Shown: positions 34,701-48,992 of the stretch, piece after piece
How positions within the stretch are numbered: the first letter of the stretch is position 1
How the letters are laid out: the number at the start of each line of letters is the position of its first letter
Origin: Oncomelania hupensis
Lineage: Eukaryota; Mollusca; Gastropoda; Littorinimorpha; Pomatiopsidae
Direction of reading: 5' to 3'
Assembly (NCBI GenBank): GCA_036898135.1
Contig: JBAHVR010000280.1
Coordinates: 61,001-125,000, forward strand
DNA: 64,000 nt
Position numbers and translations under genes: made by a program
Notes under the pieces: generated by a model
Seen by the model: only the letters and a program-made list of their open reading frames with translations
Told to the model about the DNA's origin: nothing
The model's database searches: none

Positions 34701-37700
34701 TCGTGTTGTACAATGGCTTGTGTGATGGTCTGTCGGACTTCGTCGTTAGGGATGTGTTGGGTATAGGAAATGCCCAGAAGTCTTCTGTAGCACCTCATCC
34801 CCATGCTTTGTATTCTTCGTTGTAGATCTGCTGTGAGGGTCCACGCTTCGCAAGCATATAGGAAGAAGGAGATGACAAGGGAGCGCAGCAGTCTTACTTT
34901 GGAATGTAGACTGATGGTACTGTCTTTCCAAATGGGCTTCAACCTTGTCAGGGCAGCAGTTGTTTGTGCGATCCTGGAGAGGACTTCCTGTCGGGACCCA
35001 TTGTCTGACACAATGGCTCCCAAATATTTGAAGCTATGCACTATGTTGAGGGATTGGCCTTGGACTTTGTTTACTATTTAAAATTTTTAAAAGAATAATA
35101 AAATTGATATAAACGGATGTGGGTCATTCTGATAAATAAATCTTAAACGTTCCACAACACAAACAACCAATCTGTCCAACATTTATTTGTCCCTTTAGAC
35201 ACAAAGTCTCGCTGCTAATGAACGATTACAAATAAATGAATGGAACAAAACCGAGCGCGAGAATCATCGCTGACACACAGTGACATAAAAAAAATTCATT
35301 CATTCATTCATCTATTTATTTTACTAATATTTAGGGATTTATTTACTTGTTGCACTATTACAATACGTTTGAGAGATGATCTACATAATTCAGCAAACCA
35401 CACAATAACATTCTAGTAGTAGAGTACTCTGTTTATGGGCAACCGTGCACCTGCACCTAAAAAGTGGGTCACGTGACAGGGGGATGACGTCATAGGTGCA
35501 CATGTACTCTTAGGTCATGATGCCCCCCAACGTGAGGGTCTTGTGCCCTGTCAAAAGTGATGGATGACGTATGGCCCGGGGGGATATAATTTTATTGATA
35601 GTGCGATCGCAAGTGCGCATCTCGGTGAATGGATATATGACTCATTGGTCTGTGCGTTAGATCAAGCACCCCAAAGACAGCAAGTGCGCATCTTGATGAA
35701 TATAGAATGACTCAGTGGTCTGTGCGTGAGATCAAGCACCCCAAAGACAGCAAGTGCGCATCTTGCTGAATATAGAATGACTCAGTGGTCTGGGCGTGAG
35801 ATCAAGCATCCAAAGACAGCAAGTGCGCGTCTCACCCAAAGACAGCAAGTGTGCATCTTGATGAATATAGAATGACTCAGTGGTATGAGCGTGAGATCAA
35901 AACATCTAAAGGCAGTAAGTGCGCGTCTTTTTGTTGTATTTATCATTTTTTTTAAATTTAGACCAAGCACCCAAAGACAGCAAGTGCGCATCTCGGCGAA
36001 TAGAGAATGGGCGTTAGATCAAACATCCAAAGGCAGCAAGTGCGCGTCTCACTCAAAGACAGCAAGTGTGCATCTTGATGAATATAGAATGACTCAGTGG
36101 TATGAGCGTGAGATCAAACATCTAAAGGCAGCAAGTGCGCGTCTTATGGTTTTTAGGATCATGTTTATACAGAGCCACATAAGAATATATGATGACTCAG
36201 TGGTCTGGGCGTTAGATCAAGCACCCCAAAGACAGCAAGTGCGCATCTTTTTGTGTTTGTATACATTAATAGTTATACCTAGACACGCTAATTTAATGAT
36301 CGGTAATAAACTTTAGCACCACTCATAAATGTTAAAATGATGTATTATATATACCCCGAAGACATAGTTAGGATTAACGAAAGGGCGGATCAAAAGAAGA
36401 CGGGAGCCAGCAAAATTTTAGTACCATTTATAAATATCAAAATCTCTCTCTTTTTTCTTTCTCTCTCTCTCTTTCTCTCTCTCACTCTCTCTCTCTCTCT
36501 CTCTCGCTCTCTCTCTCTCTCTCTCTCTCTCTCTCGCTCTCTCTCTCTCTCTCTCTCTCTCTCTCTCATTTTTTATCGATCTCTGCACACACAATATCAA
36601 AAAATGTCACTTTTGGAGGGGATATTGAATATCTAACTACAATCTGTTGTGTGGCGTGGTTGAATATATAGACAAATCTTTACAAACATAGATAACTGAA
36701 TACTAATCAAATGCTGTCAGCACGCCTGAAAAAAAAAAGTCTAAACATATATGCCACCCCTGATGACGCCCGCCAACATGTTTAACAAGTCACACACATG
36801 ATCACACTTGTTTATTAGTCGGCTTATAGATTTAGCTATCACTTTTTAAAGAGTAAATACTGTGTGGATAGTGCTCAATTGTCTGGGCGTCAGATCATAT
36901 ACCCAAAGGCTACAAGTGCGCTTCTTGGTGGTGGTTAACAAAAGGCTGCAAGTGTACGTCTCGATGGTTTTTGAGTTAGATAATATATTAGCCAACGCCT
37001 GATAAAGTATTACATGGTTAGTGCCCAGTTGTCTAGGGCGTCAGACCATGCACCCAAAAGGCTGCAAGTATGCGTCTTGGTGGTTTTGAGCTAGATCATC
37101 TTTCTCCTCTTTTTCTTATTTATCTCTCTCTCTCGCTCTCTCTCTCTCCTTTTCTCTCTCTCTCTCCCTCTCTCTCTCTCTCTCTCTCTCTCTTTCTCAG
37201 CATATAAATGTATACAATTGTTATTAAAATATACATTTATCTATGTATACTAATAGAATAATGTGTAAGCAGGAAAGCAAGGAGAGAGAAAGTTGTGCAA
37301 TTTAAAATGAAAACAAAAACCAATACTCAATGATACCAAAACACAGTGTGAGCTGTATGTGAACGCATGCAATAAATGATCTTACCAGAACTTATGTGTC
37401 TGTCCTCTATCTCTCTCACACCCTCTCTCTTTTTGTCGCTCTCTCTGTGTGTCTATATTTTGTTATACAAACACACCCAAGAATAGTTAATGACCATTGA
37501 TGGATATGTAATGACTCAGTTGTCTGTACATTAGACCAAGCACCCAAAGGCTGCAAGCGTGCGTCTTGACAATTTTGATTTAGATCATGTATCAATTGAC
37601 CAGCGCCTTGGTAAGTATGGCGAGATATCCCGAGGGGGGGGGGGTGATTAGCCAGCAGGGGGAAGGGGTGAGACAAAGTCTATCGATGACGCATGATAAA

Positions 37701-48992: not shown

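Follow-up and report, generated by a model that had tools for sequence, protein, structure and literature searches.

A 64,000-nucleotide stretch of the Oncomelania hupensis genome (contig JBAHVR010000280.1, C229 in our numbering, positions 61,001 to 125,000), here called the window, holds a 13,390-bp foldback element at window positions 35415-48804. The left arm (35415..42241, + strand, 6,827 bp) starts AGTAGTAGAGTACTCTG, the right arm (43325..48804, - strand, 5,480 bp) is its reverse complement, and a 1,083-bp spacer without a detected gene (42242..43324) separates them; an exact 6-bp target site duplication, CATTCT, flanks both ends, at 35409..35414 on the left and 48805..48810 on the right. 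Inverted arms of 5.5-6.8 kb, the CATTCT duplication and a gene-free spacer of about 1.1 kb had all been proposed in an initial annotation made from the letters of this DNA, and all are borne out. With 12,307 of 13,390 bp in arms that contain internal repeats, the element has the anatomy of the foldback structural class. Aligned with each other over the arm bins 35415-42164, the arms match at 5,354 of 5,373 positions (gaps excluded), 14 of the 19 differences sit in two bins holding TC runs, and the gap in arm length comes mainly from two ~690-bp tandem units present in the left arm only (gaps of 672 and 686 bp). The element's first 17 bases are found, within the window, at its two ends only.

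The arms are rich in repeats: tandem units of 70, ~167 and ~180 bp, the ~690-bp unit and TC runs. On the + strand of the left arm, 70-bp tandem repeats (35609..35832) lie within the terminal repeat, the ~690-bp units form an array at 37111..39515 that is two units shorter in the right arm, a stretch at 40673..41277 includes ~167-bp tandem repeats (40885-41257), and two tandem units resembling short interspersed elements (SINEs), 77% identical to each other, follow at 41457..41879. The SINE-like units are present in both arms (window 41457-41879 and 43687-44109); words in them resembling a tRNA A box or 5S RNA were noticed by eye only, and Rfam matched neither 5S nor tRNA in them. A Pfam scan of 52 open reading frames (ORFs) of at least 55 aa in 35415-43400, which spans the left arm, the spacer and 76 right-arm bases, detected no transposition gene, two of the 52 giving one weak match each (E 0.0026 and 0.0073). 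No PolB, rve integrase, ATPase or capsid gene of its own was detected in arm or spacer by Pfam or tblastn, and the element is thus no autonomous Maverick; an Rfam scan of it returned only matches that are weak or lie in TG-rich repeats, and ARAGORN found no tRNA within the window.

Does the element stand alone? The initial annotation would have withdrawn its reading had the genome held no other copies; there are 39 other paired copies with exact 6-bp duplications. Across 1.45 Gb in 428 contigs, the outer 400 bp of the element recur genome-wide as inward-facing pairs (best 40 of 399 candidates), and a 34-base terminal-repeat pattern, with at most two mismatches, occurs at 120 places (57 forward, 63 reverse), against none in either orientation for a reversed-pattern control. 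The listing covered 100 of these 120 places; 77 fall in tested pairs and 23 have no listed partner. The set of 40 pairs comprises the window's element, 17 pairs from the 400-bp search and 22 from the 34-base pattern; every one has an exact 6-bp duplication (17/17 and 22/22 besides the window), starts AGTAGTA at both ends and carries at least two AGT units at each. For the pattern-derived pairs an end could be shifted by up to nine bases if it still started AGTAG: 18 of the 22 needed no shift, two needed one base (C1:136.54M, C251:0.48M) and two an extra AGT on the left (C7:1.48M, C12:58.81M), which C14:49.87M also required. Three of the 40 pairs (C9:53.37M, C12:58.81M, C12:50.11M) have simple-repeat flanks, because of which their duplications say little. 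Contigs C1-C17, of 52-170 Mb, hold 35 of the 40. An identical 30 bp stands outside the right end of C5:19.29M and outside an end at C1:167.79M for which no partner was listed, indicating a duplicated or misplaced segment.

The 6-bp duplication, the (AGT)2//(ACT)2 ends and a terminal repeat with homology to the one in gene-bearing Mavericks place the element among Maverick/Polinton mobile units. Ten of the 40 pairs are of a short-repeat kind, 15.3-17.6 kb long with repeats of ~0.4-0.6 kb, and the terminal repeat that coding copies have in common is the outermost ~0.4-0.6 kb of the foldback arm; between foldback and copies encoding Maverick proteins it is about 88-97% identical in its best stretch. 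Within short-repeat copies the two repeats are 98.2-99.6% identical in seven of ten and 92.0-96.9% in three (gaps counted). Three such copies (C8:39.70M, C15:57.41M and C5:60.44M), read in separate pieces, are full of ORFs, and ORF domain scans covered the first two. Both encode an rve integrase with a chromodomain. C8:39.70M also has a Pox_A32-type ATPase (C15:57.41M with a sub-cutoff match only, E 0.089), a 763-aa ORF whose homologues carry PF03175 (DNA_pol_B_2), and a 439-aa capsid-like ORF with a homologue bearing a double-jelly-roll domain; Pfam matches of the 763-aa ORF to YL1, CDC45 and similar families look, in our judgement, like composition matches. Subterminal DNA of C8:39.70M is found on both sides in all 9 other short-repeat pairs. 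The best named match of the integrase is from Batillaria attramentaria (64%), with Littorina saxatilis further down (49%), and the best named matches of the capsid-like ORF are from B. attramentaria (69% and 64%) and L. saxatilis (63%). These matches make a gastropod the likely host, with the reservation that such elements may pass between species. A genome search with PF03175 gave a single match among the best 91 of 609 candidates, at C15:11910351-11911571, outside the elements studied and perhaps belonging to another Maverick lineage. Viral contigs held no match to the element's first 25 terminal bases.

Eight copies were classified as foldbacks: the window's, C4:3.72M, C12:62.07M, C3:21.84M, C14:49.87M, C14:4.50M, C12:50.11M and C2:51.67M. 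The 22 pattern-derived pairs were sorted into kinds only in part, and unclassified pairs include one on C394, with a coding-like left end, and one on C315, with long shifted repeats and little window-arm sequence. The arms of C4:3.72M, C12:62.07M, C3:21.84M and C14:49.87M align with each other over 5,457-6,201 columns at 97.4-98.8% identity, lower (87.6%) in the outer 0.5 kb of C4:3.72M. Those of C14:4.50M show 97-98% identity in two blocks, 2.2 and 1.9 kb long and shifted in position, the outer 1 kb being more diverged; those of C12:50.11M align across 2.8 kb, with a retroelement-like ORF in the right piece; and in C2:51.67M four blocks of the right piece match the window arm, the left piece having an ORF like that of a long interspersed element (LINE). 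The order of arm segments varies among foldback copies. Without sign of insertion, foldbacks measure 11.7-13.7 kb (eight copies, the window's and seven others). Three unusually long pairs also have exact 6-bp duplications: C12:62.07M (28.0 kb), C7:1.48M (45.3 kb) and C16:29.06M (30.2 kb); the first two hold the spacer 5.9-6.3 kb from one end and are therefore probably foldbacks with large insertions.

The spacer recurs with the arms. A query from it (42380-42920) matches at least 40 genome places including the window, at 85-100% identity and with four matches clearly partial; 12 of the 40 pairs contain it, none of which is a short-repeat pair (0 of 10; best 40 of 3,518 candidates). Several pairs have it near mid-element, for example 6,495/6,249, 6,280/6,512 and 6,737/6,410 bp from the ends, and at least one side of the spacer match measures 5.5-7.1 kb in all 12 spacer-bearing pairs. 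At five of six further spacer loci the spacer is flanked by two inverted copies of the inner arm, with 99.4-100% identity over 435-498 bp, and C17:16.80M has a different sequence on one side. Four of the five two-armed loci have the same arm-spacer junction as the window, and in the fifth the arm ends no more than about 6 bases from it. The two-armed loci C1:93.84M and C8:65.87M are outside the tested end pairs.

We conclude with high confidence that the element is a giant non-autonomous snap-back derivative of Mavericks/Polintons, copied and inserted in trans by coding Mavericks. The earlier proposal of a non-autonomous DNA transposon mobilized in trans finds support in the 39 further paired copies, the lack of a detected transposition gene and the coding relatives with the same ends, and the transposon class and the coding partner are additions to it. 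Trans mobilization itself we infer from the shared ends and the co-resident coding copies.

How might such arms have arisen? The outer 1,029 bp of the left arm (35415..36443, + strand) are collinear, at 70-78% identity, with three coding Mavericks at their polymerase-side end: in 3/3 copies the outer ~1 kb of that end matches arm 1-1029, at 77.7% in C15:57.41M and 70-72% in C8:39.70M and C5:60.44M. Farther in, arm 5259-5863 (window 40673..41277, + strand) is 62-81% identical to an inter-ORF stretch of these copies, matching tandem repeats that lie 5.0-5.6 kb from the polymerase-side end in C8:39.70M and C5:60.44M. At the opposite end of the three coding copies, arm 894-1029, beyond the shared repeat, has no match, and that end gives mostly simple-repeat matches beyond the shared repeat. 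Since both arms carry DNA found at one end of coding copies, a snap-back origin is the simplest account: one Maverick end would have been copied into an inverted duplication, with repeats filling in later.

Within an element, arms and ends resemble each other closely. Arms of the same element are sisters in 5/5 elements of a four-block tree and 6/6 of a three-block tree, with bootstrap values of 87-100 (concatenated trees built without C12:50.11M and C2:51.67M); they differ by 0-0.44% (0-6 sites in 1,373-2,276), and the between-element median is 1.1-1.2%. From the tip to the conserved core, the terminal bases come in 25 left-end variants, and in 35 of the 40 elements the left and right ends are the same; cross-pairing ends of different elements gives 4.6% agreement. 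Of the five elements with unequal ends, C12:50.11M has a substitution, C14:59.85M looks recombinant and three have one extra AGT unit on the left end. Three of the eight classified foldbacks share an end variant with short-repeat copies at both ends, one does so at one end and four at neither: the window has the 30-bp variant of C15:57.41M, C4:3.72M that of C10:57.23M, and C14:4.50M that of C5:60.44M, C2:112.06M and C5:19.29M, and C12:50.11M shares one end with C7:3.73M.

A mechanism that would produce this pattern begins with replication by the protein-primed polymerase of coding Mavericks and ends with insertion by their integrase. During replication, the displaced single strand would self-anneal through its arms into a panhandle, mismatches in the paired arms would be corrected, and every new copy would start out with nearly identical arms. 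Large loops that stay unpaired, the extra 690-bp units among them, would escape correction. The terminal AGT repeats would be the site where the priming complex slides back. One-sided AGT gains at the extreme end fit such slippage, and near-identical arms fit self-annealing of the displaced strand. Protein-primed phages are described as sliding back, and adenovirus as jumping back (PMC3480470).

Several observations pull the other way. Both trans mobilization and arm correction are deduced from sequence comparisons. The internal repeat sits farther from the polymerase-side end in C15:57.41M (7.1-7.2 kb rather than 5 kb), and 63 bp of the arm (1195-1257) match the opposite end in 3/3 coding copies. 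No Maverick gene remnant was found in arm or spacer by tblastn with nine ORF pieces of C8:39.70M (one 14-residue match, E 0.17), so most of arm 1,030-5,259 is without demonstrated Maverick origin. With three blocks, the arms of C4:3.72M differ from each other by 0.44%, no less than the 0.43% that separates the closest two elements, and in single-block trees the arms of C14:4.50M (block B1) and C12:62.07M (block B2) are unpaired. Repeat identity within C7:3.73M and C2:112.06M is 92.7% and 92.0% (gaps counted), outer arm parts are 87.6% identical in C4:3.72M and 78-83% in C14:4.50M, and the tandem repeats contain many gaps. The PF03175 model itself gave no match to the 763-aa ORF, whose identity comes via homologues, and the double-jelly-roll domain was found in 1 of 120 listed homologues of the 439-aa ORF, two others scanned being without it. 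The absence of the spacer from a copy is weak evidence, because the best 40 of 3,518 candidates were scored.

Could the arms instead have been kept alike by ordinary chromosomal gene conversion after insertion, rather than by correction at replication? Long inverted repeats are well-known conversion substrates, and the 0-6 differing sites in 1,373-2,276 within elements are as this process would have them. However, an identity of 98.2-99.6% is also seen between the short repeats of seven of ten coding-type copies (92.0-96.9% in the others), end variants match in 35 of 40 elements as expected for ends identical at birth, and the one-end extra AGT units (3/40) are left unexplained; we regard conversion as a doubtful explanation that still deserves some weight. 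Sister arms would equally follow from a foldback made anew in each copy, with an integrated or replicating half-element snapping back and duplicating one arm each time. The arms of the two-armed loci stop at the window's junction in four of five cases and about 6 bases off in the fifth, though, and at least one side of the spacer match is 5.5-7.1 kb long in 12/12 spacer-bearing pairs; given this common junction and these common side lengths, the two-armed design looks inherited. The window's arms also differ in their number of 690-bp units, unlike a fresh copy, and repeated de novo formation is accordingly improbable.

By duplication length alone, the element could belong to a different cut-and-paste superfamily that makes 6-bp duplications (Dada, IS3EU) and only resemble a Maverick. 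Against this, copies that encode Maverick proteins share its terminal repeat (best stretch about 88-97% identical), and the window and coding copy C15:57.41M carry an identical 30-bp end variant, which makes this reading very unlikely. We give the least credence of all to a sequencing fold-back or assembly artefact. The window does sit on C229, which is not a chromosome-size contig; even so, the arms are non-identical, with fixed indels, and exact duplications at 40/40 checked pairs, 35 of them on the 52-170-Mb contigs C1-C17, refute an artefact for the family; the initial annotation had reasoned that such an error would not end in a target duplication.

Other classes were considered and rejected. 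Miniature inverted-repeat transposable elements (MITEs) are usually well under 1 kb, and at 13,390 bp this element is not miniature; its ends and the partner genes also rule against that class. Membership of the Galileo/P superfamily is contradicted by the two scanned partners, both of which encode an rve integrase and not a P-type transposase. Ginger elements have 4-5 bp duplications and TGTNR ends (PMC2836005), in contrast to the ends and partner genes found here.

The likeness to known Mavericks/Polintons lies in the (AGT)2//(ACT)2 ends, the 6-bp duplications and the inverted terminal repeats (PMC8097293 and PMC8969392), as well as in the homology of the terminal repeat to that of the genome's coding copies. 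According to PMC8097293, AGTAGT...ACTACT is the commonest end motif of intact vertebrate Mavericks, which have 6-bp duplications and repeats of 46-1,447 bp; the present element differs in having no detected genes and arms of 5.5-6.8 kb. Its long, internally repetitive inverted repeats, variable tandem units, spacer and arms rearranged between copies recall Galileo, whose repeats are ~0.3-1.2 kb and which has a P-type transposase (PMC3573991), unlike the Maverick ends, duplication and partner genes seen here. Cryptophyte Polinton-like viruses (PMC12220804) have terminal repeats that range from hundreds to thousands of bp (under a filter set at 100 bp to 8 kb) and an rve integrase that gives 6-bp duplications, but they are gene-bearing, whereas no genes were found in this element. 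We found no non-autonomous Polinton/Maverick and no foldback Polinton in the literature searched, papers beyond it and Repbase being outside its scope.

Snap-back defective genomes occur in protein-primed linear viruses such as adenovirus, and a 1988 paper reportedly dealt with panhandle replication. As in such snap-back genomes, one end is inverted and duplicated here and panhandle folding is proposed; unlike them, the present derivative is dispersed in a host genome and known from genomic sequence alone. Why, then, are these elements so large? Most non-autonomous DNA transposons shrink to MITEs, unlike these foldbacks. A tentative possibility, which we hold to be less probable than not, is a satellite role, in which the foldbacks would be defective snap-back genomes that depend on a living Maverick virus, replicated by protein priming and packaged in Maverick particles. 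If true, this would explain their giant size (11.7-13.7 kb, just under the 15.3-17.6 kb of short-repeat copies) and the terminal variants shared exactly between some foldbacks and coding-type copies, and it would mean that animals carry satellite genomes of integrated viruses.

To our knowledge, Maverick replication has so far been deduced mainly from genes. A gene-free family with Maverick ends separates the replication signals from the genes. The 25 end variants, alike at both ends of 35 of the 40 copies, and the one-sided AGT gains record end copying and slippage, and protein priming and panhandle correction therefore become testable by sequence. Arm divergence may also date individual insertions.

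Elsewhere in the window, a retroelement is present in two inverted copies, at 49788-53939 (- strand) and 57529-61746 (+ strand), with a relative at 17395-19707 (- strand). It has SCAN, protease, H2C2, rve, reverse transcriptase and RNase H in a single frame, in that order, so that the integrase precedes the reverse transcriptase, and we take it to be Gmr1-like; viral contigs held no confirmed relative of it. At 2448-3372, a 33-bp unit is repeated 28 times within open frames of both strands.
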